From: Planctomycetaceae bacterium
GTDB lineage: Bacteria > Planctomycetota > Phycisphaerae > Phycisphaerales > SM1A02
NCBI GenBank assembly: GCA_021297815.1
Contig: JAJTGK010000012.1
Location: forward strand, 1-39,786
DNA: 39,786 bases
Direction: 5' to 3'
In this document: positions 5,511 to 39,733 of the stretch, one piece after another
Layout of the letters: each line of letters opens with the position of its first letter
Numbering within the stretch: position 1 is the stretch's first letter
Translations under genes and position numbers: made by a program
Notes under the pieces: model-generated
What the model saw: the letters and a program-made list of their open reading frames with translations, nothing else
Database searches by the model: none
Told to the model about the DNA's origin: nothing

Positions 5511-5564
5511 GTGCACGGCACGTGCCAGGCAGTGCCAGGCACTGCACGGCACGTGCCAGGCACC
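5511..5564. repeat. 54-bp GTGCC/GGCAC repeat array, copy 1
   Basis: This is a string of five 10-11-nt units of the form GTGCMMGGCA(C). It is highly self-complementary and contains the palindrome GGCACGTGCC twice (ACGT at 5520 and 5551). Copy 2 at 5664-5717 is identical except for one base at the eleventh position. The left flank CCCCGAACG resembles the left flanks of the arrays at 32809 and 39658. It sits in the convergent gap between the hydrolase and DUF72 genes. Confidence 0.95.
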
Positions 5565-5663
5565 ACGGTTCCGCGGCGTCGACGCGCTTCCGTGAGTTCC
5601 GATGGGAGCCGTTTTTCCGAGCGAATCGACGGCTCGCGAGGTGCCGCGCTGGTTCGGGCGGCC
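5565..5663. other. 99-bp variable core between repeat arrays 1 and 2
   Basis: This non-repetitive stretch separates two nearly identical arrays in direct orientation. An 87-bp stretch plays the same part at 32863-32949, but the two cores share no convincing long match by eye. No credible gene is seen in it. Confidence 0.5.
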
Positions 5664-5717
5664 GTGCACGGCAGGTGCCAGGCAGTGCCAGGCACTGCAC
5701 GGCACGTGCCAGGCACC
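5664..5717. repeat. 54-bp GTGCC/GGCAC repeat array, copy 2
   Basis: It differs from copy 1 by a single C-to-G change, which removes the first of the two GGCACGTGCC palindromes; the second (ACGT at 5704) remains. It lies just beyond the 3' end of the DUF72 gene and could fold into strong hairpins in transcripts from either side. Confidence 0.95.
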
Positions 5718-5748
5718 AGCTGGGCGCGGGCGCACGCGTCGCGGCCCG

Positions 5749-6741
5749 CTACCCCTCCGCGATCCTCCGCGCGAGCCGTTCCACCGACAGCGGGCTCGAG
5801 CCCTCGGCCTTGTTGTTCACCACCACCCACACGCCGAGACCCGCCGCGATCGCGCCCCTTGCCAGCCGCGCCAGCGCGTCGCGGCTATCGTCGTCGGGCT
5901 CGACCAGCCGGTCGAACGGCGCGTAGAGGTCCTTCGCCTCCTCGTAGCGGTGGTTTCCACGCAGCATCCAGCGCATCACCAGCGGTTTGCTCGGATCGAG
6001 CGCCAGTTCGCGCGACTGGATCTCTGGTGCAGGCATCGTCGGGTGCACCGTGAGGCACGGGGCGACGCCTTGTTCGGCGAGCATCTCGCCGAGTTCGGGG
6101 CCGACCAGTTCCGACGCGCGCAACTCGACCGCGTACAGCGGTCCTTGCGGCAGCTCCGCGAAGAAGCGTCGGAGATCCGCGATGAACTCGCGTCGCGCGC
6201 GCTCGCCTGCGAAACGCATCGGGCTGAACTGGAACAGGAGCGGGCCCGCCTTGTCGCCGAGGCCTTCGATCGCGGGTGCGATGCACTCGTCGACCGCCAC
6301 GCGCGCGTCGAGAAACGGCGTGGTTTTGGTACCGGCGTGATGGGCCTCGCGTTCGAGCAAGCCGCGCCACAACTTGACGAGGAAGCGGAACCCCTCGGGA
6401 ACCTGCTGCGCGAGCCGTTCAAACTCCGCGCGCGGCGCGGGTCGGTAGTAGGTCTTGTCGAGCCCGACCGTTCGGAAGAGCGGGTGCCTCGCGTAGTGCG
6501 AAAGTCCGTCGCGGGCGAGCGTCGACTCGCTTGCGGGCGCGCTGTAGACGAGGCCAGCCCAGCCAGGGAAGCTCCAGCTCGAAGTGCCGAGCCGAACCGT
6601 TGCAGGCAGCGCGGTCGCGAGCGACCGGATCTCCGCGGTCGGCTCCGCAGGTGCAAGCGCCATGCGCCCGCGCGTGGGCCCCAAATTTGTGCGCGGAAGC
6701 CATGTCGCGTCGAACAATGTGGGATCATCCGACTCCAGCAT
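5749..6741 (-). CDS. DUF72 (YecE-like) TIM-barrel protein
   Basis: This 330-residue protein matches the DUF72 family: VRLGTSSWSFPGWAGLVY near residues 49-66, then LDKTYYRPAP, VPEGFRFLVKLWRGL, PLLFQFSPM, YAVELRA, and a C-terminal VWVVVNNKAEGSSPLSV. The family adopts a TIM-barrel-like fold and its biochemical activity is not established. The N-terminal 45 residues (MLESDDPTLFDATWLPRTN onwards) precede the usual family start and may be a variable extension. It is monocistronic, convergent with the hydrolase gene and divergent from the 417-residue protein gene. Confidence 0.9.
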   Translation of the reverse strand: MLESDDPTLFDATWLPRTNLGPTRGRMALAPAEPTAEIRSLATALPATVRLGTSSWSFPGWAGLVYSAPASESTLARDGLSHYARHPLFRTVGLDKTYYRPAPRAEFERLAQQVPEGFRFLVKLWRGLLEREAHHAGTKTTPFLDARVAVDECIAPAIEGLGDKAGPLLFQFSPMRFAGERARREFIADLRRFFAELPQGPLYAVELRASELVGPELGEMLAEQGVAPCLTVHPTMPAPEIQSRELALDPSKPLVMRWMLRGNHRYEEAKDLYAPFDRLVEPDDDSRDALARLARGAIAAGLGVWVVVNNKAEGSSPLSVERLARRIAEG

Positions 6742-6746
6742 TCAGG

Positions 6747-6760
6747 AGATTGTCCAATCT
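6747..6760. promoter_or_regulatory. 14-bp dyad and -10-like box at the DUF72 start
   Basis: AGATTG-TC-CAATCT is a perfect 6-bp inverted repeat ending 6 nt upstream of the DUF72 start codon. On the minus strand it includes GACAAT (6749-6754), 7 nt before the ATG, which fits a leaderless -10 position. It could be an operator overlapping the promoter. Confidence 0.35.
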
Positions 6761-6974
6761 TGATCGCAGAGTGGGACCCGCTCACTGCCCCAATGCGAAC
6801 AACGAGGTCCGCAAAAACCACGCATGGTGAACAGGGAGAGCGTCTTTCTTCTTATCCATCTCCAGAGACGATTCCGCGCAATCTTTGCATCACGAGGCTC
6901 GACGAATTGAGCGAAGTGCGGCAGTACACCGCCGCCGCTCGTCGTATGGCGCGTATACAGCCGCCTTCTGTTAG

Positions 6975-6988
6975 GTCGTGAAAACGAC
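6975..6988 (+). promoter_or_regulatory. GAAA-tetraloop hairpin upstream of the 417-residue protein gene
   Basis: GTCGT-GAAA-ACGAC is a 5-bp stem closed by a GNRA-type tetraloop and can be extended by G-U, A-U and U-G pairs. It lies 29 nt before the ATG at 7018. The surrounding 276-bp gap (6742-7017) is noticeably less GC-rich than the coding regions and otherwise shows no gene, tRNA or clear riboswitch. Confidence 0.3.
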
Positions 6989-7005
6989 TTGTTTGCGATC
7001 CAAAA

Positions 7006-7011
7006 TCCGAT
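7006..7011 (+). promoter_or_regulatory. Candidate -10 box TCCGAT before the 417-residue protein gene
   Basis: TCCGAT lies exactly 6 nt before the ATG at 7018 and differs by one base from the TACGAT boxes before holA and the FHA-kinase gene. There is no Shine-Dalgarno sequence, so a leaderless start is plausible; in that case the hairpin at 6975 would be upstream DNA, not leader RNA. Confidence 0.3.
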
Positions 7012-7017
7012 TCACCC

Positions 7018-8271
7018 ATGCAGCTTGCAGATCATCACTCGAAGACGAGCCTCGCGGAGGTGCTTGAAGCGGCCGACGCCCTTCGCGCCGCGATGCGTTC
7101 CGCCATCGCGCCGCTCGTGCGCTCCGACGACGGCGCGCGCGCCTGCGCCCGCACGCTCGGCCTCGACAAGTCGCTCGGGTGGAAGATCCATCAGATCGCG
7201 TTCTGCACGGAGTCGGTGGACGCGCTGTCGGCGATGCCGGGCAGCCGCGGCTGGGAGATCGCGCTGCAGGGCCTCGCGACGGCGGGCGCCGACGCAGAGG
7301 CCGTCGCACGCGTCCGCACGGCGCACCTGTCGTTCGAGCGCGCGCTCCTCGACGGACGCATCGACCGCAAGACGCTGGCTGGCATGGTCGCGGCGCTCGC
7401 CGACAACGACTCGGGACGGCGGCAGATCCTCCGCATGCGCAAGTCGGCCACCGAGTCGAGCGCGCTGCTCTACGGGGCGCACATGGTGGCGCGCATCGGC
7501 GCGTACCTCGTGATGCCCTCGCGTTCGAAGCCAGGGTTCGTCGATCTCGCGGCGCTCACGATCCTCGAGGGCATCGAGCGCCGCCGCCCAGGAAACCCCT
7601 GGCCGATCTACACCCCGATGTTCCGTCACCCGACGGGCAGCCTTGCGATGCAGCTCGCCACGGAACTCGCGCTCGACGCCGACGACAAGGGCGGATTCGG
7701 TTCGCTTGTCCGAAGCCTGTCGTCGCCCGACCTCGGGCGCGACGAGATCGCACCGAGCGCGATCCCAGGCTCCCGCGCGATCACCTTCCTCTCGCGCTCC
7801 GTGAACCGCGGCTCGCCGCTCAGGCTTGCATTCGCCGAGTCGATGCCCGCTGCGGGCAGCGCCTACGCGACGCCAGGCGACGAAGAGCTCTACATGGGTC
7901 TGCCACCCGGCACGCCGTGCGACATGGCGGTGTTCGATGTGCTCATCCACCGCGATGTTCCGCGTGGCAGCGATCTCGACTCACGCTACTCGCTGCGCCA
8001 GATCAGCTCGAACTCGAGCCCCGACGAGGTCAGCGCCGCGATGCACGAGCACAGCGAGCTTCCCGTCGACGCCGAGATCACGCGGCCCGATTCGCTGCGC
8101 CTCGCAGGCATGCTCTCGTCGGCGAACTCCGCCTACGAAGCGCTCGTCGGCCGCGCCACGCAGGCGTTCGGATACCGCGCATCCGACTTCGAGATCTTCC
8201 GCACCGCCGTCGAGTATCCGCCCGTCCCGGGCATGCTGATCGCCTCGTGGCGGCTGGCGCCTGCGCGCTGA
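7018..8271 (+). CDS. Unrecognised 417-residue protein with possible N-terminal HTH
   Basis: I do not recognise this family. There is no signal peptide or membrane segment, so it should be cytoplasmic. Residues about 42-62 (ACARTLGLDKSLGWKIHQIA) have the spacing of a helix-turn-helix, with a small residue, a turn at GLDKS and a recognition-helix-like LGWKI. The remainder is mixed alpha/beta, with an aromatic and proline-rich stretch (RRRPGNPWPIYTPMFRHP) and a conserved-looking DMAVFDVLIHRDVP. A DNA-binding regulator with a ligand-sensing domain is one reading, but it is inference. It is monocistronic, ends in a strong shared terminator, and has codon use like its neighbours. Confidence 0.85.
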   Translation: MQLADHHSKTSLAEVLEAADALRAAMRSAIAPLVRSDDGARACARTLGLDKSLGWKIHQIAFCTESVDALSAMPGSRGWEIALQGLATAGADAEAVARVRTAHLSFERALLDGRIDRKTLAGMVAALADNDSGRRQILRMRKSATESSALLYGAHMVARIGAYLVMPSRSKPGFVDLAALTILEGIERRRPGNPWPIYTPMFRHPTGSLAMQLATELALDADDKGGFGSLVRSLSSPDLGRDEIAPSAIPGSRAITFLSRSVNRGSPLRLAFAESMPAAGSAYATPGDEELYMGLPPGTPCDMAVFDVLIHRDVPRGSDLDSRYSLRQISSNSSPDEVSAAMHEHSELPVDAEITRPDSLRLAGMLSSANSAYEALVGRATQAFGYRASDFEIFRTAVEYPPVPGMLIASWRLAPAR

Positions 8272-8297
8272 ACCGGTTCGCGCTACGCCTGGAATGC

Positions 8298-8327
8298 AAG
8301 CGGACCCCGCGATCGCGGGGTCCGCTT
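8298..8327. terminator. Bidirectional intrinsic terminator between the 417-residue protein gene and clpP
   Basis: A perfect 30-bp palindrome (arms AAGCGGACCCCGCGA / TCGCGGGGTCCGCTT) lies between two convergent genes. It is followed by TTTTCTT on the plus strand and by an A/T-containing run on the other, so it can terminate both transcripts. Confidence 0.85.
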
Positions 8328-8353
8328 TTCTTCGTTCATGCGCTGCGCGGCGA

Positions 8354-8965
8354 TCACGCGGGCTTCGACGCCTGCATCGGCAGCTTCTCGAGCACCTTGT
8401 CGACGAGGCCGTACGCCAGCATGTCCTTCGACGAGAGCCAGTAGTTGCGCTCGCAGTCCTCGGCGATCTTCGCCGCGGTCTGGCCCGTGTTCTCGGCGTA
8501 GATCGCGTACAGCTGGTCGCGAAGCCGCAGGATGTGGCGCGCCTCGATCTCGAGGTCGGTCGCCTGGCCCTCGAGCACGCCGCCGATCAGCGGCTGGTGC
8601 ATGAGGTTCTCCGCGTTCGGCAGCGCGTAGCGCTTGCCCTTCGTGCCCGAGCACGCGATGACCGAGCCCATGCTCGCCGCCTGCCCGATGATGTAGGTCG
8701 CGACATCGCACGGCACGAACTTCATCGTGTCGACGATGCCGAGGCCCGCGGTCACGCTGCCGCCCGGGCTGTTCACATACAGCGAGATGTCGGCGCGCGG
8801 GTCTTCGTTCGCAAGGAACAGGAGCTGCGCCACGACCAGGTTCGCCATGTGGTCGTTCACGGCGCCGCTCATGAAGATGATGCGGTCGTTCAGCAGGCGC
8901 GAGTAGATGTCGTAGGCGCGCTCGCCGCGGCCGGTCTTCTCGATGACGATGGGAATGATGCTCAT
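8354..8965 (-). CDS. clpP: ATP-dependent Clp protease proteolytic subunit, paralogue 1
   Basis: This 203-residue ClpP has a complete triad: Ser98 in GQAASMG, His123 in LMHQPL and Asp170 in [14 protein letters not shown], the [10 protein letters not shown] segment and the handle region match canonical ClpP. It should assemble into a tetradecameric chamber working with ClpX or ClpC, neither of which is in the window. It is the last gene of a three-clpP operon, 43 bp after paralogue 2, and ends just before a strong terminator. Of the three it shares with paralogue 2 the N-terminal form IPIVIE...[14 protein letters not shown], so these two are the closest pair. Confidence 0.95.
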
Positions 8966-9008
8966 GTCGCGAACCTTCGTTGAGGGCGCAGGGCCCGGTG
9001 GTGGTCTG

Positions 9009-9671
9009 TCAGCTGTTCACTCTCGCGAGCGGCGCGCGCTCGACGATTCCGTCGATCAATCCGTACGCGAGCATCTCCTCGGCGTTCAGCCAGAGGTCGC
9101 GCTCGCAGTCCGCCGCGATCTGCTCCTTCGTCTTGCCCGTCATCTCGGCGTAGAGCGCGTTGCACTGGTCCTCGATGACCAGCATGCGGCGCGCCTCGAT
9201 CTCGAGGTCGGTCGCCTGCCCCTCGATGACATCGAGGATGCGCCCCTGGTGCACGAGGTTCCACGCGTGCCGCGTGGCGAAGCGCCGCCCCTTCGTGCCG
9301 CAGCAGGCGATCAGGCTCGACATGCTCGGCGCGCAGCCGATGATGTAGGTCGCGATGGGGCAGGGCAGCGACCGCATCGTGTCGATGATCGCCATGCCCG
9401 CCGTGATGCTTCCGCCCGCGCCGTTCACATACATCGCGATCTCGGCCTCGGGGTCGGTGGCCGAGAGGTACAGCAGCTGCGCGCAGATCGAGTTCGCCAT
9501 CGGCGAGCGGATCTCGCCCGAGCACATCACGATGCGGTCGGCGAGCAGCCGCGACCACATGTCGTACTGGCGCTCGCGGCCGCCCGCCGACTCGATGACA
9601 TACGGCACGAAGCCGTAGTCGCCGTCGTCGTCGGACGAGAGAAGCGTGGGTTGTTCGGCGGAGGGAGTCAC
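9009..9671 (-). CDS. clpP: ClpP paralogue 2 with altered active-site loops
   Basis: This 220-residue ClpP-like protein keeps the residues needed for catalysis: Ser116 in GCAPSMSS, His141 in LVHQGR and Asp188 in IAADCER. The surrounding loops depart from canonical ClpP: the Gly after the nucleophile motif is Ser (SMSS instead of SMGS), NSPGGS is NGAGGS, and the usual HQPLGG loop is HQGRILD. It also has a 20-residue acidic N-terminal extension. It probably forms mixed rings or a chamber with altered specificity (inference), as seen for paralogous ClpPs in other phyla. It starts 28 bp after paralogue 3. Confidence 0.93.
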
Positions 9672-9699
9672 GGGTTCGGCATCGCGCGCGGAGGCCGCG

Positions 9700-10350
9700 T
9701 CACTTCTTCGTCTTGTCGGGGAACACCGCGACCTCGTCGACGAGGCCGTACGCCTTCGCCTCCTCGGCGCTGAAGAACTTGTCGCGGTCCGAGTCCTTGG
9801 CGATGCGCTCGAAGGGCTGGCCCGTGTGCTTGGCCAGGATCTCGTTCAGCGTGCGCTTCATCTTCACGATGTGCTCGGCCTGGATCTGGATGTCGGTGGT
9901 CTGGCCCGTCACGCCGCCGAGCGGCTGGTGGATCATGACCTTCGCGTGCGGCAGGATGAACCGCTTGCCCGGGTGGCCGGCCGCGAGGAGCAGGGCGCCC
10001 GCCGAGTACGCGCGGCCGATGCAGAAGGTCGACACATCCGACGAGATGAACTGCATCGTGTCGTACATCGCCAGCATGTCGTCCACCGACCCGCCCGGCG
10101 AGTTGATGTAGAAGTTGATGTCCTGCCCCTTCTTCTGGTTCTCGAGGTAGAGCATCTGCATCATCACGCGCGCGGCCGAGGCGTAGTTGACCTCGCCGAT
10201 GAGGAAGACGACGCGGTTCTCGAGCAGGAGCTCGTCGATGGTCATCTCGCGGGTGCGCTGGTAGTTGACGGCGCTCAGCACCTCATGGCGACGCTCGGGA
10301 GGCAGGCTCGCGAGGATGTGGGGGAGGTGCGCGTCAAGGATCGAATGCAT
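9700..10350 (-). CDS. clpP: ClpP paralogue 3 (operon leader)
   Basis: This 216-residue ClpP has triad residues Ser116 (GRAYSAG), His141 (MIHQPLGG) and Asp186 (IAKDSDR). The AYSAG nucleophile loop replaces the usual AASMG. The N-terminal 45 residues (MHSILDAHLPHILASLPPERR onwards) are longer than usual and helical in character. The open frame continues upstream, but the ATG at 10350 is the first in-frame ATG that gives a normal ClpP length, and nothing ClpP-like lies before it. It is the first clpP of the operon, preceded by a 181-bp gap holding a candidate promoter and a dyad. Confidence 0.93.
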   Translation of the reverse strand: MHSILDAHLPHILASLPPERRHEVLSAVNYQRTREMTIDELLLENRVVFLIGEVNYASAARVMMQMLYLENQKKGQDINFYINSPGGSVDDMLAMYDTMQFISSDVSTFCIGRAYSAGALLLAAGHPGKRFILPHAKVMIHQPLGGVTGQTTDIQIQAEHIVKMKRTLNEILAKHTGQPFERIAKDSDRDKFFSAEEAKAYGLVDEVAVFPDKTKK

Positions 10351-10448
10351 GCTCGGGGCCTTTGGTTCGGTTCGGACAGGAACTCGTCCGAGGAAGGTCG
10401 TGCCAGGCCTGCACACGGCTCGCAGGTTGCCATCCACGGGGAGGCGGG

Positions 10449-10476
10449 ATCGTATTCGCCGAGGCTTGATCGGCAA
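10449..10476 (-). promoter_or_regulatory. Candidate promoter of the clpP operon
   Basis: On the minus strand TTGCCG (10476-10471) and TACGAT (10454-10449) are separated by 16 bp, a plausible vegetative promoter. It would give a leader of roughly 90 nt before the first clpP. The same TACGAT hexamer occurs as the -10-like box of three other genes in the window. Confidence 0.45.
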
Positions 10477-10490
10477 GCCGCGTCGGGAAC

Positions 10491-11644: not shown

Positions 11645-11647
11645 GCC

Positions 11648-15514: not shown

Positions 15515-17092
15515 GTGCCCTCGAATTGCACCGCCCGAACCATCGCGACCACGAAGCCCGCCCGCTGCATGGGTGCATCGCGCACCAGCCTGGCGCTTCT
15601 CGCCGCGCTCTCGACCACCTTCCTCGCGGGCTGCGAGGTCGACTCGTACTTCGATCCGAGCCGCACCGGCTACTTCGAGAAGACGCCGACCACGATGCCC
15701 GTGCTGTCGCGGCTCGATGTGATCGAGCGGCAGGCCTACAAGGGCGCGACGATCTCGCCGCCGCAGGCCGAGGATCTCGTGCCGAGCGAGCTGAAGTACC
15801 GCCTCGCGCCAGGTGACAATGTGCGCGTCGAGATCTTCGAGCTCATCACGCCCGGCGCCACCGAGGTGCTGCCCGTGACGATCGACCAGACGGGCAACAT
15901 CCGTCTGCCTGAGGTTGGCGATGTCACGGCGGCGGGCCTGACCATCGAGGAGCTGCAGGAAGAGGTCGTCCTCAAGGCGAGCCGCTTCATCGAGAACCCC
16001 GTTGTGGTGGTCTTCCTCGAGCGTGGCCTCGGCTTCCAGTTCACGATCTCGGGTGCCGTCGGCGAGACGGGCGTCTTTGCGCTGCAGCGCCCTGATTTCC
16101 GGCTCTCCGAGGCGATCGCGCTGGCGCGTGGCACCATCGACACCACGCAGCGCGTGATGATCATCCGCGCCGCGGCCCTCGACGACACGCTGAAGCCCAT
16201 CTATCCGCAGCGCCAAGGCGCCGCGGGTGGCGGCGCCGCAGGCGGCTCGACGGGTGGAGCGACGGGCGAGAAGCCCGCGGTCGATGTCGACGCGCTCATC
16301 AACGAACTGACCGACGAGAAGAAGACCGACAAGCCCGCCGAGGGCGGCGAGCAGCCGAAGCCGTCGAGCCCTGGAGCGGTGTCGGGCCTCGCCCGCACGC
16401 TCGCACAGGACGACAAGCCCGCGGTCGATGTCGACGACCTCGCCACGCCGAAGGCCGCTGCCGAGGAAACCGCGGCTTCGCCCACGGGATGGACCTTTGA
16501 CGCAGCCTCGGGCCGCTGGGTGCGCGGTGTGGCCGCAGGCGCGGGAAGCAAGCGCGGCGGACGGCCGTCGCCTTCGCCCACGGCGTCGATGTACGCGACG
16601 CGCATCATCGATGTCGACTACCAGGAGCTCATCAAGGGCGATCCGAACCTCGATGTGATCATCCGCCCGGGCGACCGTATCTATGTCGAGCCGCCCGAGA
16701 CGGGCTTCATCTACATCGACGGCGAGATCAACCGCCCCGGCGTGTTCAACCTCGAGAACTCGAACGGCAAGCTGACCCTGAGCCGTTTCGTGACCGCAGC
16801 AGGCGGCCTTGCGCCGACGGCGATTCCGAACCGCGTCGACATCGTTCGTGTGGTCGGGAAGGACCGCGAGGCGACGATCCGCGTCGACCTCGCAGCCATC
16901 CGAAATCGCTCCGAGCCCGATATCTACATCAAGCCGAACGACCATGTGATCATCGGCACGAACTTCCTCGCGGTGCCGCTGGCCGTGATCCGCAACGGCT
17001 TCCGCATGACCTACGGCTTCGGCTTCCTGCTCGACCGCAACTTCGGCAACGACGTGTTCGGCCCGCCGCCGAGCGACGACATCTTCAACTGA
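15515..17092 (+). CDS. Polysaccharide export (Wza-like) SLBB lipoprotein
   Basis: This 525-residue protein resembles Wza/EpsA-type outer-membrane export proteins. A lipoprotein signal ends in LAGC (Cys40); the polysaccharide-export domain follows (YRLAPGDNVRVEIFEL), then an SLBB domain (FTISGAVGETGVFAL) and a second SLBB domain (FIYIDGEINRPGVFNL, then VTAAGGLAP). About 120 low-complexity residues (about 230-350), rich in Gly, Ala, Lys, Glu and Pro, interrupt the first SLBB unit and include two copies of KPAVDVD. I chose the GTG at 15515, which has CCGGAG 8 nt upstream; an ATG at 15569 without an obvious binding site would also leave an intact lipoprotein signal. It heads the envelope polysaccharide locus. 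It contains the only ACGT in coding sequence (17052). Confidence 0.9.
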   Translation: MPSNCTARTIATTKPARCMGASRTSLALLAALSTTFLAGCEVDSYFDPSRTGYFEKTPTTMPVLSRLDVIERQAYKGATISPPQAEDLVPSELKYRLAPGDNVRVEIFELITPGATEVLPVTIDQTGNIRLPEVGDVTAAGLTIEELQEEVVLKASRFIENPVVVVFLERGLGFQFTISGAVGETGVFALQRPDFRLSEAIALARGTIDTTQRVMIIRAAALDDTLKPIYPQRQGAAGGGAAGGSTGGATGEKPAVDVDALINELTDEKKTDKPAEGGEQPKPSSPGAVSGLARTLAQDDKPAVDVDDLATPKAAAEETAASPTGWTFDAASGRWVRGVAAGAGSKRGGRPSPSPTASMYATRIIDVDYQELIKGDPNLDVIIRPGDRIYVEPPETGFIYIDGEINRPGVFNLENSNGKLTLSRFVTAAGGLAPTAIPNRVDIVRVVGKDREATIRVDLAAIRNRSEPDIYIKPNDHVIIGTNFLAVPLAVIRNGFRMTYGFGFLLDRNFGNDVFGPPPSDDIFN

Positions 17093-30748: not shown

Positions 30749-32796
30749 GCCATACAGATGAACACGGAGCATCGCGGCCTGCGGCCGCGGCGGCGCGCGC
30801 CACAAGCATCTCCCGCTGGGCGCGCGTGCTCGTTTCAGGCGTCGCCCTGTCGGTGGTGCTGGTCGCAGCGCGCGTCGTGCAGCTGAAGGTGTGGCCCGAG
30901 CCGCAGCTTCAGGCGGCGATGGTGCGGCCGAACGGGCAGCTCGTGCAGCAGCGCGCGGCCGAGGAACCTGAGCCGCGCGGCCGCATCGTCGACCGGGCTG
31001 GAAGGCTGCTCGCCGTCGACACGATCGGCGGGCGGCTCTTCATCGATGTGAAGGACCTGTACACCGATGCGCTCGCCGCGATCGAGCGTGAGGAGCAGCG
31101 CTACGAGAATGGGCTTGCGCGCGCGAAGGACAAGGGAACGCAGCCGCCTGCGCCGCCCGTGCTGAGCTTCGATCCGATCGCGGACATCGCGGAGCAGATC
31201 GCGCGGCCGATGGGCGTCGCGCCTGCGGCGATCATCGCGCCGATCTATGCGCGCGTTCCGCAGGAGCTGCGCACGCTGCGCCGCGACCTCTCGGAGGCGG
31301 ATTGGAAGCGGCTTCCGCGCTTCGTCGTGCTGGCCGAGGACCTCACCGAGCCGCAGGTCGACGCGCTGACCGAGGCGCGGCGCCGCGCGGGCCCCACGGG
31401 GCTGCTGCGTGGCGCGCATGTGCAGCCGAAGTCGGTGCGCATGAGGCCGTTCGAGGAGATGGCGGCGGCGCTCGTCGGCAAGACGGGCTTCGATGGCAAC
31501 GGGCAGTCGGGCGCGGAGCTGCGCGCGAACAAGGTGCTCAAGCCGACCGCGGGTCGCACGATCTTCTTCGCCGACAACCGTGGTCAGGTGATCTCGGTTC
31601 CTGCGCACGGACATCTGGCGGGCGAGCCGGGCGACGATGTGCGCCTCTCGATCGACATGGTCATCCAGGAGGCCGTGGAGCGCGAGATCAACGCGACGGT
31701 CGACGAGTCGAACGCGGGCGGCGGTCGCTGCATCGTGGTCGATGTCAACACGGGCGAGATCCTTGCGGCGTACGACACCGTTCGCCGCAACACGGGCCGC
31801 TCGTTCATCGCGGCGGACCCGAGCGACAAGAACGGCATCTCGAATCTGAAGGACCCTGCGCTCGCGCGCATGCGGTGGGTGACTGATCCGTTCGAGCCCG
31901 GCTCGATCTTCAAGCCGTTCGTGTGGGCGTGGTCGATCGAACTCGGAAGGGCCGGCCGCCGCGAGACGATTCGTCTTCCCGACGGGCCGCTGACGGTGAG
32001 CGACGGCCGTGCCAAGCGCACGATCCGCGAGGCGCACCGCACGAGCTACGGCACGAAGAGCTGGGAGGATTGCCTCATCAAGTCGGTCAACGCGGGCATG
32101 GCGACGATCGCGTTCCGCATGACGACCGACGAGATGAAGCAGTGCCTCTCGGCGTTCCGGTTCGGCATGAAGACGGGCATCGGGCTTCCGGGCGAGACCG
32201 CGGGTCTCCTGCCGCGCGCCGACGAATGGACCAACAAGACGCGCGCGCAGACCTCGGTCAGCTTCGGCCAGGGCATCGCGGTCACTCCGCTGCAGCTGGT
32301 GCAGGCTTTCACGGCGTTCTGCCGCGATGGCTCGATGGTTCCGCTGTCGATCGCGCCCGTCGCGGATGGATCGCTCACGGGTTCGCTCGAGGCAATCGGC
32401 GAGCCCGCGGCGCTGATGACGCGCGAGGTCATGCAGGATGTGATCGTGCGCGGCACGGGCAAGAAGCTGAAGGACATCCTTCGCTTCTCGGCGTTCGGCA
32501 AGTCGGGTACCGCGCAGCTTGTGAAGACGGAGGGCGGCTACTTCGACGACCGCTATGTGTCGAGCTTCCTGCTCGGCGCGCCGTTCGATCGCCCTGAGGT
32601 CGCGATCCTCGTGACGATCGAGGACCCCGACAAGGTGAAGACGAAGGGCGCGTATGGCGGTGGCGCGCTCGCGGGCCCGTGCGCGGCACGGATCATGAAT
32701 GCAGCGCTTGAGTACATGGGCGTGCCGACCGACGGCGAGCTCGTGTATGCCGAGAAGAAGGACGAGCCGAAGAAGCTCGCGCAGGCGGATCAGTAG
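30745..32796 (+). CDS. ftsI: Peptidoglycan D,D-transpeptidase FtsI (class B penicillin-binding protein)
   Basis: This 683-residue class B PBP has one N-terminal membrane segment (about 27-45), the RGRIVDRAGRLLAVD entry to the pedestal domain, and the three transpeptidase motifs: Ser387-Ile-Phe-Lys390 in PGSIFKPF, Ser447-Val-Asn449 and Lys586-Ser-Gly-Thr589. It cross-links septal peptidoglycan. It is somewhat longer than E. coli FtsI (588 residues) mainly through the pedestal domain and a Lys/Glu-rich tail. Its presence agrees with Phycisphaerae, which keep more of the division cluster than many other planctomycetes. It is the last gene of the plus-strand run, convergent with sucB. Confidence 0.94.
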   Translation: MSHTDEHGASRPAAAAARATSISRWARVLVSGVALSVVLVAARVVQLKVWPEPQLQAAMVRPNGQLVQQRAAEEPEPRGRIVDRAGRLLAVDTIGGRLFIDVKDLYTDALAAIEREEQRYENGLARAKDKGTQPPAPPVLSFDPIADIAEQIARPMGVAPAAIIAPIYARVPQELRTLRRDLSEADWKRLPRFVVLAEDLTEPQVDALTEARRRAGPTGLLRGAHVQPKSVRMRPFEEMAAALVGKTGFDGNGQSGAELRANKVLKPTAGRTIFFADNRGQVISVPAHGHLAGEPGDDVRLSIDMVIQEAVEREINATVDESNAGGGRCIVVDVNTGEILAAYDTVRRNTGRSFIAADPSDKNGISNLKDPALARMRWVTDPFEPGSIFKPFVWAWSIELGRAGRRETIRLPDGPLTVSDGRAKRTIREAHRTSYGTKSWEDCLIKSVNAGMATIAFRMTTDEMKQCLSAFRFGMKTGIGLPGETAGLLPRADEWTNKTRAQTSVSFGQGIAVTPLQLVQAFTAFCRDGSMVPLSIAPVADGSLTGSLEAIGEPAALMTREVMQDVIVRGTGKKLKDILRFSAFGKSGTAQLVKTEGGYFDDRYVSSFLLGAPFDRPEVAILVTIEDPDKVKTKGAYGGGALAGPCAARIMNAALEYMGVPTDGELVYAEKKDEPKKLAQADQ

Positions 32797-32808
32797 CCGT
32801 CTCCGAAG

Positions 32809-32862
32809 GTGCCTGGCACGTGCCAGGCAGTGCCAGGCACTGCACGGCACGTGCCAGGCACC
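32809..32862. repeat. 54-bp GTGCC/GGCAC repeat array, copy 3
   Basis: It has the same five-unit layout as copies 1 and 2; the first unit reads GTGCCTGGCA instead of GTGCACGGCA. Two GGCACGTGCC palindromes are present (ACGT at 32818 and 32849). The left flank is CTCCGAAG, like the flanks of copy 1 and the array at 39658. It begins 12 bp after the ftsI stop. Confidence 0.95.
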
Positions 32863-32949
32863 GGTCGCTCGCGCAGGGATCGTCCGCGATTCTTCAGCGA
32901 TCTGCCTCGAAAACCATCGATGAGCGATCAGGACGCCTGGACACTCGGC

Positions 32950-33002
32950 GTGCATGGCGCGTGCCAGTCGGTGCCAGGCACCGCACGGCACGTGCCAGGC
33001 AC
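32950..33002. repeat. GTGCC/GGCAC repeat array, copy 4 (degenerate)
   Basis: It is aligned unit by unit with copy 3 but has several changes in the first two units (GTGCATGGCG, CGTGCCAGTCG). The last three units and one GGCACGTGCC palindrome (ACGT at 32990) are kept. An 87-bp core (32863-32949) separates it from copy 3, matching the paired arrangement at 5511-5717. Confidence 0.9.
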
Positions 33003-33093: not shown

Positions 33094-34293
33094 TTAGAAC
33101 AAGAGCCGCTCGGGCTTCTCGATCATGTCCTTGATGTGCACGAGGAAGCCGACCGCTTCCGCGCCGTCGATGATGCGGTGGTCGTAGCTGAGCGCGAGAT
33201 ACATCATCGGACGGAGCGCGATCTGGCCCGGGTTTCGCGGATCTTCGATCGCGCGCTTCTTGATCGCATGCATGCCGAGGATCGCCGACTGCGGCGGATT
33301 GAGGATCGGCGTCGACATGAGCGAGCCGTAGACGCCGCCGTTCGAGATCGTGAAGGTGCCGCCCGTCATCTCGTCGACGGTGAGCTTGCCGTCGCGCGCG
33401 CGCACGGCGAAGTCCTTGATGGTCGACTCGATGCCCGCGAACGAGAGCGACTCGGCGTTCCGCAGCACGGGGACCACGAGGCCCTTCTCAGTGCCGACCG
33501 CGACGGCGATGTCGCAATAGTCGTGGTGCTCGATCTCCATGTCGGCGCCCGTGCCCGCGACATACGCGTTGACGCGCGGGTACTTGCGAAGGGCGCTGGC
33601 GGCGGCCTTCACGAAGAAGCTCATGAAGCCGAGACCGACGCCGTGCTGCTTCTCGAAGGCGTCCTTGTGCTCGGAGCGAAGGCGCATGACCTCGGTCATG
33701 TCGCACTCGTTGAAGGTCGTGAGCATCGCCGCGGTGTGCTGCGCGTGGACGAGGCGCTCGGCGATCTTCTGGCGGAGCTTGGTCATCTTCTCGCGACGGA
33801 CGCCGCGTGAACCGACGGGCGCGGGCGGCACGACGGGAGCGGCGGGCTTCGCAGCGGGCTTCGTCTCCGTGGCGGCCGCGGGCTTCGTGGTGGCGGCGAG
33901 CACATCGTCCTTCATCACGCGGCCCGATGGACCTGTGCCCGGGATCGACGCCGTGTCGACGCCCTTCTCGGCGGCGACCTTCTTCGCGACACCCGACACG
34001 CGCGCGGGTTCCTCGGCCTTCGCCGCGGGCGCCGCGGGCGCCGACTTCGGCTTGGCGGCATTCGTGTCGATCGACGCGACCACCGCGCCGACCTTGATGC
34101 CGTCGCCCTTCTTCGTGCCGATCTTCAGCGTTCCTGCAGCGGGCGCGCGCAGCTCGAGGGTCGCCTTGTCCGATTCGATCTCGGCGAGGAGGTCATCTTT
34201 CTCGACATAGGTTCCGTCGTCCTTGAGCCAGCCGCTGAGCGAGACCTCGGTGATCGATTCGCCGGGCGAGGGGATGGTGATGTCGACTGCCAT
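33094..34293 (-). CDS. sucB: 2-oxoglutarate dehydrogenase E2 (dihydrolipoyl succinyltransferase)
   Basis: This 399-residue E2 has one lipoyl domain (lipoyl Lys43 in [11 protein letters not shown]), an Ala/Pro/Lys-rich linker, a peripheral-subunit-binding domain (about 97-130, [14 protein letters not shown] and [13 protein letters not shown]), a second linker and the catalytic acyltransferase core with SYDHRIIDG (His372, Asp376). [16 protein letters not shown] and the [11 protein letters not shown] region match succinyl- rather than acetyl-transferases. It forms the core of the TCA-cycle complex with SucA. It starts 27 bp after sucA on the same strand. No E3 (lpd) gene is nearby. Confidence 0.95.
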
Positions 34294-34320: not shown

Positions 34321-37188
34321 TCACTTCTGCGCGGTTTCCTTCTTGCTGCCGGGTCCACCCGCAGGTCCGTCGCCACCCTTGGCGGCGCCGATCGCCTCGG
34401 TGAGGATCTTGTCCTGCTCGATCGCGTGCTGCTTCTGGCTGCCGACGGCGGGGCTCGCCGAATCGGGGCGGCCGACATAGCCGACATCGATGCTGCAGAG
34501 CTCCTTGAGCTGCGTCTGCGCGAAGCGGTACGCGCCCATGTTGCGCGGCTCCTCCTGCACCCACACGAACTTCTTCGCGTTGGGATAGAGGCCGAGCGTC
34601 TTGGTGATCGCCGCGTCGGGGAACGGGAACAGCTGCTCGAGGCGCACGATCGCGGTCGTGGCCTGGCCGCTCTTCTCGCGCTGCGCGGCGAGCTCGTGGT
34701 AGATCTTGCCCGAGCAGAGGATCACCTTGTTCACCGCGTCGCACGCCTCCTTGGCGACGCCAGGGTCGGCGAGCACCGTGCGGAAGTGGCCGTCGGTGAA
34801 GCCCTCGACGCGGCTCACCGCCGCGGGCAGGCGCAGCATCGACTTCGGCGTCATCACGACGAGCGGCTTGCGGAAGCCCTGCTTCACCTGGCGGCGGATC
34901 ATGTGGAACACCTGCGCCGAGGTCGTCGGGTACGCGACGATCATGTTGTCGTGCGCGCACAGCTGCAGGAACCGCTCGAGCCGCGCGCTCGAGTGCTCGG
35001 GTCCCTGGCCCTCGTAGCCGTGCGGCAGGAACATCGAGAGGCCCGTCGAGCGCTTCCACTTCGCCTCGCCCGAGGCGATGAACTGATCGATGATCACCTG
35101 CGCGCCGTTCACGAAGTCGCCGAACTGCGCCTCCCAGATGACGAGCATGCGCGGGTCGCCGAGCGAGTAGCCGTACTCGAAGCCGAGCACGGCGCTCTCG
35201 GTGAGCGGCGAGTTGTGCACGCAGAAGCGGGCCTGCTTCTCGCTGAGCGCGTTGAGCTGGCAGTAGCCCTCGTTCGTCTCCTGGCAGTTGACCACCGCGT
35301 GGCGGTGGCTGAAGGTGCCGCGCTCGACATCCTGGCCCGAGAGGCGGATGGGGTGGCCTTCGGAGAGGAGCGTCGCGTACGCGAGGAGCTCGGCCAGCGC
35401 CCAGTCGATGGAGCCCGTCGCGATCGCGCCCGCGCGCTGCTCGAGCAGTCGCGCGACCGTCTTGTGCGCGGTCGCGTGCGACGGCATCTCGCCGAGCTTT
35501 CGCGCGAGCGACTCGAGCGTCTCGAGCGCGACCTTCGTCTGGACGGGCTCGTCCTTGTACTGGCTGGTGATGCCGCTCCACACGCTCTTGAACGGATCGA
35601 TGACGGGGTCGATCGGCTGCTTCTTCGCAGCCACCTGGGCCTCGTCCATCACGGCGTTTCGCGCGGCGAGCATCGCGTCGACCTCGGCCTCGGTGACGAC
35701 GCCCTCGGACACGAGCTTCGCGCGGTAGGTCTTGAACGCGGGGCGAGCCTTCTTCACGCGCGCGTACAAGAGCGGCTGCGTGAACATCGGCTCGTCGGTC
35801 TCGTTGTGCCCGTTCTTCCGGAAGCACCACATCTCGACCACGATGTCGTGGCCGAAGGCCTGCCGCCACTCCATCGCAAGCCGCGCCGCCCACGCGCACG
35901 CCTCGGCGTCGTCGCCGTTGACATGGATCACGGGGCAGTCGTAGGCCTTCGCGAGGTCGGTGCAGTAGTTGCCGCCGAAGGTGTCGCGCGGATTCGTGGT
36001 GAAGCCGACCTGGTTGTTGACCACGACATGGATCGTGCCGCCGACGGTGTAGCCGTCGAGGTGCATCATGTTGAAGCACTCGGCGACGATTCCCTGTCCT
36101 GGGAACGCGCTGTCGCCGTGCACGATGACGGGGACGACGGCCTTGCGCTCGGTGTCGCCGACAAGGCGCTGCTTGCCGCGGCAGCGGCCGAGCACGACCG
36201 AGTTCACGAACTCGAGGTGCGACGGGTTCGCGGCGAGCACGACGCGGAGCTTCTGCCCCGTCGAGGTCGTGTGCTCGTTCGAGTAGCCCATGTGGTACTT
36301 CACATCGCCGCCGCCCGACGCGAACGCCGCGGTCCACGCCTCGTCGAACTCGGTGAAGATCTGCTGAAGGTTCTTGCCGACGATGTTCGCGAGCACATTC
36401 AGGCGGCCGCGGTGCGCCATGCCGAGCATGAACTCCTGCACGCCGAGCGCGGGGCCCGACTCGAGGATCTGGTCGAGGATCGGGATGAGCGACTCGCCGC
36501 CCTCGAGGCCGAAGCGCTTCTTGCCCACATAGCGGTTGGCGAGGAAGTTCTCGAAGCTGTCGGCCTCGAGCAGCTTCGAGAGCACGCGCTTCTTCGCGTC
36601 GGCGCCGAGCTGCGGACGGTTGCGCGTCGACTCGAGGCGCTTCGCGATCCACGCGCGGCGCTCGAGCGAGCCGAGGTGCATGTACTCGACGCCCATCGAG
36701 CCGCAGTAGGTCTGCTCGAGGCAGTCGATGATGTCGCCGAGCGTGGCGGGAGAGTCGATGGGCAGCGTGCCCGCGTCGAAGGTGCGGCCGAGCGCGCCGT
36801 CGTCGAGGCCGACGGCCTCGAGCGTGAGTTCATCGGGGAACGCGCGCGTGGTGCCGAGCGGATCGAGCTGCGCGGCGAGGTGTCCGTGGCTGCGGTAGCG
36901 CAGGACGAGCTCGTCGACCTTGCGCTGGTCGGCGTCGGCGGTGGTGCCGGTCGCGACTGGCGTCGGGGCGGATGGCGCCGCCGCGGCGCTCGTCGAGGCC
37001 GCGGCCTCGGGCTCGCGCGACATGCCAAGCTCGAAACCGAGGAAGAACTGCCGCCACTCGGGGCCGACCGAGTCTGGATCGGCGAGGAAGCGCTGGTACT
37101 GCGCCTCGACGAACTCGGGTTGCCAGCCGTTCAGCGACTGGCGGGCGTGGGGGCGGGAACCTTCGTGACTCGGACCCTCGTGGGCCAT
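34321..37188 (-). CDS. sucA: 2-oxoglutarate dehydrogenase E1 component
   Basis: This 955-residue thiamine-diphosphate enzyme decarboxylates 2-oxoglutarate and passes succinyl to the E2 lipoyl group. The N-terminal NGWQPEFVEAQYQRFLADPD is the E2-binding helix typical of OdhA/SucA. MAHRGRLNVL, HGDSAFPGQG, the ThDP region VNNQVGFTTNPRDT, HGYEGQGPEHSSARLERFLQ and the C-terminal VWVQEEPRNMGAY follow in the expected order. The ATG at 37188 was chosen because it has GGAG 8 nt upstream; the frame is open further upstream to 37566 through low-quality sequence overlapping the priA 3' end. It leads the sucAB operon. Confidence 0.95.
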   Translation of the reverse strand: MAHEGPSHEGSRPHARQSLNGWQPEFVEAQYQRFLADPDSVGPEWRQFFLGFELGMSREPEAAASTSAAAAPSAPTPVATGTTADADQRKVDELVLRYRSHGHLAAQLDPLGTTRAFPDELTLEAVGLDDGALGRTFDAGTLPIDSPATLGDIIDCLEQTYCGSMGVEYMHLGSLERRAWIAKRLESTRNRPQLGADAKKRVLSKLLEADSFENFLANRYVGKKRFGLEGGESLIPILDQILESGPALGVQEFMLGMAHRGRLNVLANIVGKNLQQIFTEFDEAWTAAFASGGGDVKYHMGYSNEHTTSTGQKLRVVLAANPSHLEFVNSVVLGRCRGKQRLVGDTERKAVVPVIVHGDSAFPGQGIVAECFNMMHLDGYTVGGTIHVVVNNQVGFTTNPRDTFGGNYCTDLAKAYDCPVIHVNGDDAEACAWAARLAMEWRQAFGHDIVVEMWCFRKNGHNETDEPMFTQPLLYARVKKARPAFKTYRAKLVSEGVVTEAEVDAMLAARNAVMDEAQVAAKKQPIDPVIDPFKSVWSGITSQYKDEPVQTKVALETLESLARKLGEMPSHATAHKTVARLLEQRAGAIATGSIDWALAELLAYATLLSEGHPIRLSGQDVERGTFSHRHAVVNCQETNEGYCQLNALSEKQARFCVHNSPLTESAVLGFEYGYSLGDPRMLVIWEAQFGDFVNGAQVIIDQFIASGEAKWKRSTGLSMFLPHGYEGQGPEHSSARLERFLQLCAHDNMIVAYPTTSAQVFHMIRRQVKQGFRKPLVVMTPKSMLRLPAAVSRVEGFTDGHFRTVLADPGVAKEACDAVNKVILCSGKIYHELAAQREKSGQATTAIVRLEQLFPFPDAAITKTLGLYPNAKKFVWVQEEPRNMGAYRFAQTQLKELCSIDVGYVGRPDSASPAVGSQKQHAIEQDKILTEAIGAAKGGDGPAGGPGSKKETAQK

Positions 37189-37313
37189 CTCTGCTGCTCC
37201 ATCTGACGCGACAGCGCGCGCCCGCATGGGCGCGTCGCGCGCATCGGGGCGATTGTAGAGGAAGGCGCGGTGCGGTTCAGGCCGCTCGATGCGGGTTTCC
37301 GCGGTGCGACGGG

Positions 37314-39632
37314 CTAGACGGCGCTGATCGCATCGACATCGACGGCGAGTTCCTCGCCGAGCTTCAGGAGCCCCTCGCTGCGGGCGGCGGCCAGCACCTT
37401 GGTGAGGTCCGAGGCCGACTCCGAGAAGAGCTCGATCTGCCGACGGTACTTGCCCGAGATGCGGGCGATGGGGCAGATGGACGGGCCTTGGACCTCGACG
37501 CCCGAGAACCCGCCCGCGACGATCCTGCGGAGCGCCTCGGCGAGCGCGGCGGCGCGCTCGGCGCATTCGGTCTCGCCGGGGTGGCGCAGCACCAGCCGTG
37601 CCAGGCGGCGGTAGGGCGGCAGGCGGAACTGGCGGCGGTCCTCGAGTTCCTGCGTCGCGAAGCGCTCGTAGTCATGGGCGGCGGCGAGGCGGATGGCGGG
37701 GGCGTCGGGCTCGAAGCTCTGGATGATCGCGCGGCCCGGCTTCTCGCCGCGGCCCGCGCGGCCCGCGACCTGGCTCACGAGCTGAAAGGTCCGCTCTGCC
37801 GCGCGGAAGTCGGGGAGCGAGAGCGCCGTATCGGCCGAGATCACGCCCACGAGGCGCACATTCGGGAAGTCGAGGCCCTTCGCGATCATCTGCGTGCCCA
37901 TGAGCACCTTCACCTCGCCCTTGCCGAAGCGCTCGAGCGCGTGGTGGAAATGCGCCGCCGTCTGCATGGTGTCGCTGTCGACGCGCAGCATGGTCTCGCC
38001 CTCGACAAGCGAGGGGAAGAGGCGCGCGAGCTCCTCCTCGACGCGCTGGGTGCCGAGGCCGAAGACCGTCACTGGCTTGCCGCAGTCGGGGCATGTCTTC
38101 GGCAGAAGCTGCTCGGCGAGGCAGTGGTGGCAGCGGACATAGCTGCGGCGCGCGGCACCCGTGGCGTCGACATGGCAGACCATGCCCGCGTCGCAGGCGT
38201 CGCAGGTGAGCATCCAGTCGCAACGGGGGTCGGTGCAGGCGATGTAGTTCGCGTAGCCGCGGCGGTTGAGGAGGAGGAGGACCTGTCCGCCTTCGTCGAG
38301 GGTGCGCTGCATGGAGGCGCGCAGCGTGGGGCCGATGAGCGTGACGCGGCGGTCGCGCACTTCGCGGCGCTCGGCGGCGAAATCGACGACGGTCACCTTC
38401 GGCACGGCGAGGCCGGGCGCGCGCTCGGGCAGGCGGTGCAGGCGCGAGACCTTGCGCTCGACGGCGTTGACCCAGCTCTCGAGGCTCGGCGTGGCGGAGC
38501 CGAGGACGACAGGGCACTTCGCGATCTGCGCGCGGCGGATCGCGGCGTCGCGGCCGTGGTAGCGGGGCGCGGAGTCCTGCTTGTAGCCGGGCTCGTGCTC
38601 CTCGTCGACGATGACGAGGCCGAGGGAACCATCGGGAATCGGCGCGAAAATCGCGCTGCGCGCGCCGACGACGACATCGGCGCCGCCTTCGGCGAGGAGC
38701 TGCCACTGCTGGTTGCGCTGGGCGTCGGTGAGGCCCGAGTGCAGCACGGCGACCTTGGCGTGGACGAGGCGGCCCGCGATGCGGCCGACGGTCTGCGGTG
38801 TGAGCGAGATCTCGGGCACGAGCAGCATCGCGCGCTTGCCCGACGCGACGCAGCGCTCGAGGATTCGGATGTAGACCTCGGTCTTGCCCGAGCCTGTCAC
38901 GCCGAAGACGAGGTGCTGCGCGAAGCGGCCGAGGTCGGCGGAGATGGCGTCGACGGCCGCCTGCTGCGCGGCGGTTGCCTGCGGCGCGGGCGGCACGCGC
39001 CCCGCGCGCGCGATGAAGCCCGCTTCGACGGAGGTCTTGCGCACGGCGACGAGATGACCCGAGGCGATCAGCCGCTTGAGCGGCTCGGTGGAGGAGTATC
39101 CGCTTGCGTCGGCGAGATCGCCGAGCTCGCAGGGGCGCGGCAGCGTGGCGAGCACCTCGAGCGCGTGCTGCTGGCGCTTCGTGATCTTCGGGAGCGCGGC
39201 ACGCGCGTCTTCGGCGGCGAGGTCGACGAGCGTGCGCTCGACGCGCCCGATCGACTTGCGGACCGCGGCGGGCAGGATCGAGGCGAGCGTCATGCCGATC
39301 GGGCACGCGTAGTACGCGCTGATCCAGCGCGCGAACTGGATGAGTTCGCCTGGAAGCACGGCGCCCGAGGCGTCCTGCGCAAGAACCGCCTTGATCTTCT
39401 CGCGCGGGATTCCAGGGTCTTCGTCTGCGGCAAGCCTGCGCACGATCCAGCCGGCGGTCGGGGTCTCGCCTCGGCCGAGCGGCACCTCGACGCGCGCCCC
39501 CTCGGGAAGCTGCGCGAGCTTCGGCGGCAGCGCGTAGGTCAGCCCGTCGGGGGAGCGGTCGACGGCGCGCTCGACGGCGACGACGACGAGCGGGCTCTCT
39601 TCCGAAAGGGTGCTGGACGCGAAGAGCGACAC
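37314..39632 (-). CDS. priA: Primosomal replication-restart helicase PriA
   Basis: This 772-residue protein (E. coli PriA has 732) restarts stalled replication forks. The N-terminal DNA-binding domain contains VEVPLGRGETPTAGWIV; the helicase has Walker A GVTGSGKTEVY, DEEH in VIVDEEHEPGYKQ, GSATPSLES, the paired zinc-binding Cys motifs (CDACD, CHHC, CPDCG), QMIAKGLDFPNV and QVAGRAGRGEKPG. The frame is open to 39761, but its first 43 codons are made of repeat-array sequence, so I place the start at the GTG at 39632. No good Shine-Dalgarno is seen there; a TAGGCT box lies 10 nt upstream. It is on the same strand as sucAB but separated by 125 bp. Confidence 0.93.
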   Translation of the reverse strand: MSLFASSTLSEESPLVVVAVERAVDRSPDGLTYALPPKLAQLPEGARVEVPLGRGETPTAGWIVRRLAADEDPGIPREKIKAVLAQDASGAVLPGELIQFARWISAYYACPIGMTLASILPAAVRKSIGRVERTLVDLAAEDARAALPKITKRQQHALEVLATLPRPCELGDLADASGYSSTEPLKRLIASGHLVAVRKTSVEAGFIARAGRVPPAPQATAAQQAAVDAISADLGRFAQHLVFGVTGSGKTEVYIRILERCVASGKRAMLLVPEISLTPQTVGRIAGRLVHAKVAVLHSGLTDAQRNQQWQLLAEGGADVVVGARSAIFAPIPDGSLGLVIVDEEHEPGYKQDSAPRYHGRDAAIRRAQIAKCPVVLGSATPSLESWVNAVERKVSRLHRLPERAPGLAVPKVTVVDFAAERREVRDRRVTLIGPTLRASMQRTLDEGGQVLLLLNRRGYANYIACTDPRCDWMLTCDACDAGMVCHVDATGAARRSYVRCHHCLAEQLLPKTCPDCGKPVTVFGLGTQRVEEELARLFPSLVEGETMLRVDSDTMQTAAHFHHALERFGKGEVKVLMGTQMIAKGLDFPNVRLVGVISADTALSLPDFRAAERTFQLVSQVAGRAGRGEKPGRAIIQSFEPDAPAIRLAAAHDYERFATQELEDRRQFRLPPYRRLARLVLRHPGETECAERAAALAEALRRIVAGGFSGVEVQGPSICPIARISGKYRRQIELFSESASDLTKVLAAARSEGLLKLGEELAVDVDAISAV

Positions 39633-39657
39633 GGCGGCGCGGAGCCTATCTCCGAAC

Positions 39658-39733
39658 GGTGCCTGGCACGTGCCGTGCACCTCGATGGCACATGCCGGGG
39701 AGGTGCATGGCATGTGCCGTGGAGGTGCCGGGG
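39658..39733. repeat. GTGCC/GGCAC repeat array, copy 5 (divergent, upstream of priA)
   Basis: The first 17 nt, GGTGCCTGGCACGTGCC, are identical to the start of copy 3, and the left flank CTCCGAACG is shared with copy 1. The rest drifts to related units such as GGCACATGCC, GGTGCATGGCATGTGCC and GGTGCCGGGG. It contains one ACGT (39668). Unlike the other arrays it sits upstream of a gene start (priA), not between convergent 3' ends, as far as the window shows. Confidence 0.85.

Follow-up and report, generated by a model that had tools for sequence, protein, structure and literature searches.

Helically spaced pairs of REP-like palindromes as candidate DNA-wrapping sites in a planctomycete genome that avoids ACGT

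The function of repetitive extragenic palindromic (REP) elements is still debated. Together with the related bacterial interspersed mosaic elements (BIMEs) and REP doublets forming hairpins (REPINs), they have been described mostly in gammaproteobacteria as paired intergenic palindromes present in tens of copies, located between convergent or unidirectional genes, separated by variable spacers and bracketing the gene of an HUH/Y1 transposase, the REP-associated tyrosine transposase (RAYT or TnpA-REP) (PMC3733652; PMC3116915; PMC6006769; PMC2817692). In SBW25, REPs have been reported to lie preferentially 71 and 110 bp apart (PMC3116915), and the feet of REPs vary by class, with CnGA in class 3 (PMC6006769). 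Here, we describe arrays sharing these features in a stretch of 39,786 nucleotides (hereafter, the window) which constitutes contig JAJTGK010000012.1 (C146 in our numbering) of a Planctomycetaceae bacterium (Phycisphaerales, SM1A02; GCA_021297815.1), a 3.03-Mb assembly of 180 contigs which is 88% complete. Repeat cores and ACGT content were compared across 16 genomes of the genus (G000–G015), with GACGTC counts from a wider order-level sample of 101 genomes. We consider it probable, if well short of certain, that these arrays belong to a RAYT system as REP/BIME-like elements which form helically spaced sites wrapped or bridged by a protein, and that the scarcity of the tetranucleotide ACGT in this genome is a separate phenomenon.

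The repeat unit is a compound palindrome of about 53 bp, GGCACGTGCC - 5 - GTGCCWGGCAC - 5 - GGCACGTGCC, in which the two cores are 31 bp apart and occupy the same place across the species examined. An array is mostly made of two units around a locus-specific spacer, and such a layout, repeated at each of many loci, differs from that of CRISPR (a judgement made on layout, cas genes not having been searched). When folded as single-stranded DNA, each of the four units analyzed formed one long hairpin (z -5.4 to -9.6). While classical REP pairs are inverted, the compound palindromes found here mostly form direct pairs (49 direct, 10 inverted and one tie among 60 scored pairs). The inverted orientation typical of REPINs is thus not the rule, yet each unit comes close to being a palindrome and arrays are bounded by inverted flanks: the outer ends share an inverted CG beside GTGC preceded by a weak A, with C and G found before GTGC in 79% and 76% of the outer flanks versus 37% and 55% of the inner ones. 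In contrast to REP/RAYT systems, no GTAG/GGAG (or CGTC) foot was seen beside the hairpin, the outward consensus being this CG before GTGC.

The connection with a RAYT is based on the following observations: 1) on contig C180, a Y1/HUH transposase gene (PF01797) has a full repeat unit on each side, 2) RAYT genes were found in nine of the ten genomes with at least 15 cores versus one of the six below this number (Fisher p = 0.008; the threshold of 15 was chosen once the data had been seen) and 3) GGCACGTGCC lies near 9 of the 15 RAYT loci of the genus. The protein encoded on C180 contains the HuH motif NHVH along with WEGR and YIERNP, and no PDB sequence matched it at E ≤ 0.001. The RAYT may mobilize the repeats with which it co-occurs. 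A preliminary description of this DNA had envisaged the arrays as recent arrivals from a different background. Their mobile-type, RAYT-linked character agrees with this proposal, but a recent arrival fits poorly with the fact that several of them are flanked by corresponding genes in other species of the genus.

The evidence for a role as double-stranded DNA comes first from the spacing of the paired units. Across 61 pairs from eight genomes, unit-to-unit distances fall at 107-111, 119-120, 129-132, 141-143, 151-155, 163 and 217 bp, with outliers at 91 and 80 bp, and 57 of the 61 deviate by no more than 2 bp from a multiple of 10.9 bp. This pattern was first seen in G000, G003 and G002 along with four stray pairs. 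At 10.9 bp, these three genomes gave an R of 0.86 (n = 34), and four others, with the same phase, one of 0.81 (n = 26, including 23 pairs collected once the pattern had been noticed). As one distance class dominates most genomes, only differences between classes were tested, and these within-genome differences (n = 10) gave a Monte Carlo p of 3e-4 with the period left free from 10 to 11.5. Corresponding loci were also compared between genomes, using 28 pairs of single-distance arrays whose neighbouring protein is similar on one or both flanks. The 11 pairs which match on both flanks differ by 0, 0, 0, 0, 2, 2, 10, 23, 33, 33 and 35 bp, which places them zero to three turns apart with a residual to whole turns of at most 2.3 bp; of these pairs, three have members in common and two involve near-identical genomes, and for locus L021 in G000 the match on the left is short. 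For the 17 pairs matching on one flank, several of which are paralogous, residuals reach 3.0 bp. Among the matched arrays, the unit distance has changed at four loci. Because a single class (about 109 bp) prevails, independent evidence for the spacing rests on about ten class differences and these four changed loci.

An ordinary REPIN or BIME, in which the RAYT mobilizes both units together and the distances reflect a few founding spacer lengths, would account for favoured distances with no involvement of the double helix. Such an explanation is in line with the RAYT linkage and with the favoured distances of the classical REPs of SBW25. However, it does not predict that distance classes differ by whole turns within species, between species and at matching loci, nor that spacers lacking sequence homology share a phased A/T pattern (see below), and we regard it as rather unlikely, though with enough in its favour to be kept in mind.

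The spacers themselves provide the second line of evidence. Common ancestry was considered as the cause of their equal lengths and is not supported, as in an all-versus-all comparison the median score equalled that of shuffled sequences (14) and only one clearly homologous case, a near-identical orthologous pair, was found among 1,770 pairs. Despite this lack of homology, the A/T content of spacers, averaged inward from either of the two units, oscillates at about 10.5 bp (amplitude 0.047-0.063 versus a shuffled 95th percentile of 0.018-0.025). Removing 6 or 10 nt from both ends of every spacer leaves this phasing in place, which argues against an edge effect as its source. In four species groups, the coherent signal has a similar phase and p values of 0.003, 0.013, 0.003 and 0.003, while the incoherent signal, with p values of 0.005, 0.37, 0.03 and 0.01, is significant in three of the four. 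Counted from either end, AA begins at 12-13 nt in 33 and 38% of the 64 halves of short spacers, versus 16% for offset 14 and 0-6% for almost every other offset. This periodicity is not supported as a general feature of the genome, being absent from 400 pieces of coding DNA (0.97 vs 1.06) and weak in 199 pieces of other intergenic DNA. Since A/T is phased from both units, the spacer is not random filler.

Collectively, the quantization of the spacing in helical turns and the phased A/T of the spacers argue for wrapping or bridging. The unit, spacer and second unit would form one double-stranded site, held by a wrapping or bridging protein with both units on the same face of the helix. The likeliest use would be that of a gyrase- or nucleoid-protein-type site comparable to the BIMEs of Escherichia coli, and the helical spacing and the phased A/T lend support to the preliminary description, which had mentioned dispersed signals including nucleoid-binding sites. 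Gyrase would be the leading candidate by analogy, while a nucleoid protein or a double-stranded DNA form of the RAYT complex may also be considered. As in the BIME-2 gyrase sites of E. coli, the clusters lie in intergenic gaps. The DNA preferred by gyrase has a 10.75-bp periodic GC pattern in the wrapped flanks (PMC6379681), which the phased A/T of about 10.5 bp resembles, although in the arrays the latter was looked for within spacers and does not itself identify gyrase. Cleavage has been reported within the REPs of BIME-2, whereas here the phased tract lies between two hairpins. Helically quantized spacers with phased A/T also distinguish these arrays from described REPs and BIMEs: in the open-licence literature, no paper combining REP, helical spacing and gyrase was found, and the word "helical" is absent from the main text of the REP articles searched.

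Mapping of GGCACGTGCC gave 70 occurrences genome-wide, and in all 22 repeat clusters any overlap with called genes is limited to 20 nt (genes being called with a simple in-house model). Three clusters are at contig edges and, of the 19 which could be classified, nine lie between convergent genes, seven between tandem and three between divergent ones. Convergent gaps are thus over-represented (9/19 versus 105/616 gene pairs, two of the nine flanking an uncalled RAYT gene). As arrays fill short gaps beside gene ends, they might be bidirectional transcription terminators, with hairpins at the ends of convergent genes and an incidental spacing. The tandem and divergent locations do not support such a function, which moreover predicts neither helical spacing nor phased A/T, and we consider it improbable. 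The wrapped-site reading accounts for these two properties.

These arrays were initially noticed through ACGT. As stated in the preliminary description, the window is almost devoid of this tetranucleotide: eight occurrences (positions 5520, 5551, 5704, 17052, 32818, 32849, 32990 and 39668) versus 133 ± 11 in dinucleotide shuffles, seven of which are GGCACGTGCC (0.09 expected) within three repeat sites. These sites cover about 478 nt, and their share of the window is small, as had been claimed, but amounts to 1.2% and not to well under 1 percent. Avoidance of ACGT by the host was confirmed in a sample of 843,256 bases made of the window and 60 other stretches, of which 15 had been picked for holding sites and 45 were contig ranges or had been fetched for another gene. 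This sample contains 112 ACGT, including 65 in GGCACGTGCC in arrays; after masking the arrays, 47 remain versus 2,416 expected from a Markov model, i.e. an observed/expected ratio (O/E) of 0.019. The proposal that arrays hold nearly every ACGT is correct for the window and does not extend beyond it. In fact, arrays contain 47 of 63 ACGT in the 15 site-chosen stretches and 11 of 41 in the other 45, so that the proportion in the window overstates a concentration which is only about one quarter outside site-chosen stretches. The residual ACGT outside arrays are themselves concentrated, with 9, 8 and 4 of the 47 on contigs C165 (locus L045), C124 (L020) and C167 (L047). With nine ACGT in 6.9 kb and four in 7.7 kb, C165 and C167 may be younger, newly acquired DNA marked by its ACGT density; they carry genes which, by eye, resemble HsdM and a serine recombinase, respectively.

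The depletion extends to called coding DNA, where it affects all three frames (0.011, 0.020 and 0.030 versus synonymous shuffles) and reverses codon choice: NAY codons before GT end with T in 1,487 cases and C in 23, compared with 3,226 and 22,050 elsewhere. In the same sample, CTAG (O/E 0.18) and CCGG (O/E 0.24) are likewise depleted, far less deeply than ACGT. Among the samples from the genus, CCGG has an O/E of 0.07-0.26 in G013, G009 and G004 and of 0.55-0.92 in 12 others of the 16.

Two explanations of the concentration of ACGT in repeats can be compared across the genus. The preliminary description had proposed, as one of two readings, a landmark, ACGT being purged from the rest of the genome by the host to keep GGCACGTGCC specific, a proposal consistent with its near absence outside arrays in this genome and with the fixed place of the core in the unit across species. 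Alternatively, the repeats carry ACGT simply because the conserved core of the family contains it. Using GACGTC as a proxy (the minimum pattern length precluding ACGT itself), counts per genome range from 24 to 2,006 in the genus and from 16 to 5,103 among the 101 genomes, and the O/E of ACGT, measured for each relative on 9-53 kb of stretches, from 0.02 to 0.91 within the genus; as judged from these ranges, palindrome avoidance turns over very fast. Weak avoiders are rich in GGCACGTGCC (GACGTC/cores: 2006/104 in G003, 1459/147 in G012 and 1654/81 in G002), while strong avoiders can have none, in the genus (55/0 in G013 and 86/0 in G009) as in other genera (25/0 in G016 and 16/0 in G092), and the avoider G007 also lacks the core. 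Because these counts dissociate and the rank correlation of core number with relative GACGTC level is weakly positive (Spearman +0.42, p = 0.10, 16 genomes), the core appears to keep ACGT regardless of the level of ACGT elsewhere in the host.

Furthermore, ACGT is eroding inside the repeats of the window's genome. Among units scoring at least 27, all 15 cores with a single mismatch are altered within ACGT, 10 of them to ATGT or ACAT, versus 16 of 37 in six weak or non-avoiding relatives (Fisher p = 9e-5); when three other avoiders are pooled, the proportion is 18 of 24 (p = 0.019). These mismatches are not independent events, as repeat copies share ancestry. With ACGT being the favoured place of change within the very repeats it should mark, and with genomes of near-normal ACGT content having as many cores or more, we conclude that protection of the palindrome is not the reason for the rarity of ACGT; the landmark proposal is highly improbable. 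Avoidance of ACGT is a genome-wide trait which varies within the genus independently of the repeats, and ACGT loss and repeats are two unrelated, overlapping processes.

Regarding the cause of the ACGT loss, our best guess is a past or unseen restriction system. A type II system recognizing ACGT, either unrecognized or lost, would have purged the tetranucleotide, while repeats would have retained it by being renewed through copying or shielded by a protein or by hairpin structure. This scenario, which is compatible with arrays being wrapped sites, seems to us evenly balanced. It resembles the avoidance of palindromes under restriction–modification (R-M), as a four-base palindrome is depleted genome-wide, in all codon frames to a similar depth and differently between close relatives, with an erosion reaching the repeats too, and site avoidance can persist as the trace of a lost R-M system (PMC4687349). 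Conversely, no matching enzyme was found in a search of two families, PF00145 (C5 methyltransferases) and PF01555 (N4/N6 methyltransferases), and no PF00145 gene was found in the genome of the window, 88% complete. Codon replacement gives no clear deamination signature: before T, ACC mostly replaces ACG, ACA rising only slightly (6% versus 4% of non-ACG codons). Deamination of methylated ACGT was likewise examined and is not supported, given the lack of a PF00145 gene and a threonine codon before T which becomes ACC in 90% and ACA in 6% of cases, although deamination may be an ancient cause of the loss. In the open-licence literature, no report of ACGT avoidance was found.

Several observations speak against the interpretation of these arrays as RAYT-linked, helically spaced wrapped sites. 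Regarding spacing, 4 of the 61 distances (155, 155, 91 and 80 bp) lie beyond 2 bp of a whole number of turns, most arrays in six genomes share the class at about 109 bp, and the period of 10.9 bp was fitted on the same data, with 10.5-11.1 fitting nearly as well. Regarding spacers, the tail of similarity is slightly heavier than in shuffles (99th percentile 23 versus 20), the incoherent A/T signal is not significant in G003 alone (p = 0.37), the A/T period is uncertain (10.2-10.7), and other intergenic DNA has a weak periodicity of its own (1.29 versus 1.08, sd 0.06). Similarly, the RAYT linkage is incomplete. Six of the 15 RAYT loci (L113, L115, L116, L117, L131 and L133, in G014, G005, G010, G007 and G006) have no GGCACGTGCC nearby; G011 has 48 cores and no RAYT was found in its 84% complete assembly, while G007 has a RAYT, no GGCACGTGCC core and a different repeat. 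As some of these loci have other repeats (the direct repeat GTGCCGGGTAGCTCGCGGG at L116 and the GTGCCAGGCACCAACCTGG type at L117), several RAYT/REP families seem to coexist. The RAYT motifs found here (NHVH, WE and YIERNP) are nearest to subclass 2.1, for which no REPs were reported (PMC6006769). The shared positions of arrays could result from repeated insertion at hot spots, gyrase is a candidate binder through analogy, and methyltransferase genes of the PF00145 and PF01555 families, the two searched, do not follow ACGT avoidance.

The positions of these elements in the window are given in the table below. The third repeat site, degenerate, is just past the called 5' end of priA, a location where G003 and G012 also have paired arrays. 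Scans of the window with Rfam and for tRNAs returned no match, nor did PADLOC in the five window open reading frames (ORFs) submitted. Between positions 8399 and 9855, the window also contains three related stretches, 652 and 685 bp apart and 67-79% alike to the first one, which resemble a tandemly triplicated gene.

Table. Repeat elements, their neighbouring genes and the isolated ACGT of the window
Feature	Position	Strand	Remarks
Alpha/beta hydrolase gene	4523..5482	+	Left of array 1
REP unit 1, array 1	5511..5563	no strand	Cores 5517-5526 and 5548-5557, both GGCACGTGCC; 5510-5564 folds as hairpin, z -5.4
Spacer, array 1	5568..5659	no strand	92 nt by script cut; unit-to-unit 153 bp
REP unit 2, array 1	5664..5716	no strand	Core 5670-5679 reads GGCAGGTGCC, with a single mismatch, within ACGT; core 5701-5710 intact
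DUF72 gene	5749..6663	-	Convergent with hydrolase gene across array 1
Sole ACGT outside repeat sites	17052..17055	no strand	Inside called gene
Penicillin-binding protein (transpeptidase) gene	30853..32796	+	Left of array 2; ORF open from 30745
REP unit 1, array 2	32808..32862	no strand	Cores 32815-32824 and 32846-32855; hairpin z -8.5
Spacer, array 2	32866..32945	no strand	80 nt by script cut; unit-to-unit 141 bp
REP unit 2, array 2	32950..33002	no strand	Core 32956-32965 reads GGCGCGTGCC, with a single mismatch, within ACGT; core 32987-32996 intact
2-Oxoacid dehydrogenase acyltransferase (SucB-like) gene	33094..34293	-	Convergent across array 2
priA-like helicase gene	37314..39632	-	Beside repeat site 3; start by in-house model, ORF open to 39761
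Degenerate third repeat site	39658..39735	no strand	GGCACGTGCC 39665-39674, GGCACATGCC 39687-39696, GGCATGTGCC 39709-39718; 22-bp steps

Two lessons emerge from this genus. The overlap of two unrelated processes can make a sequence seem set aside for a signal, and relatives whose ACGT content extends from nearly normal levels to virtual absence represent a natural experiment on the causes of palindrome loss from genomes. Regarding REPs, changes of spacing by whole turns at matching loci, along with phased A/T, suggest that these elements are read as double-stranded DNA by something which wraps or bridges them. In its broadest form, which we put forward tentatively and as slightly less probable than an even prospect, the arrays would be genome-wide, helically phased DNA-wrapping sites, with two hairpin units on one face of the helix around phased A/T, whose phase is kept during evolution while the spacer sequence turns over. 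If this is true, a mobile REP/RAYT system would have been built into a chromosome-structure code in planctomycetes.

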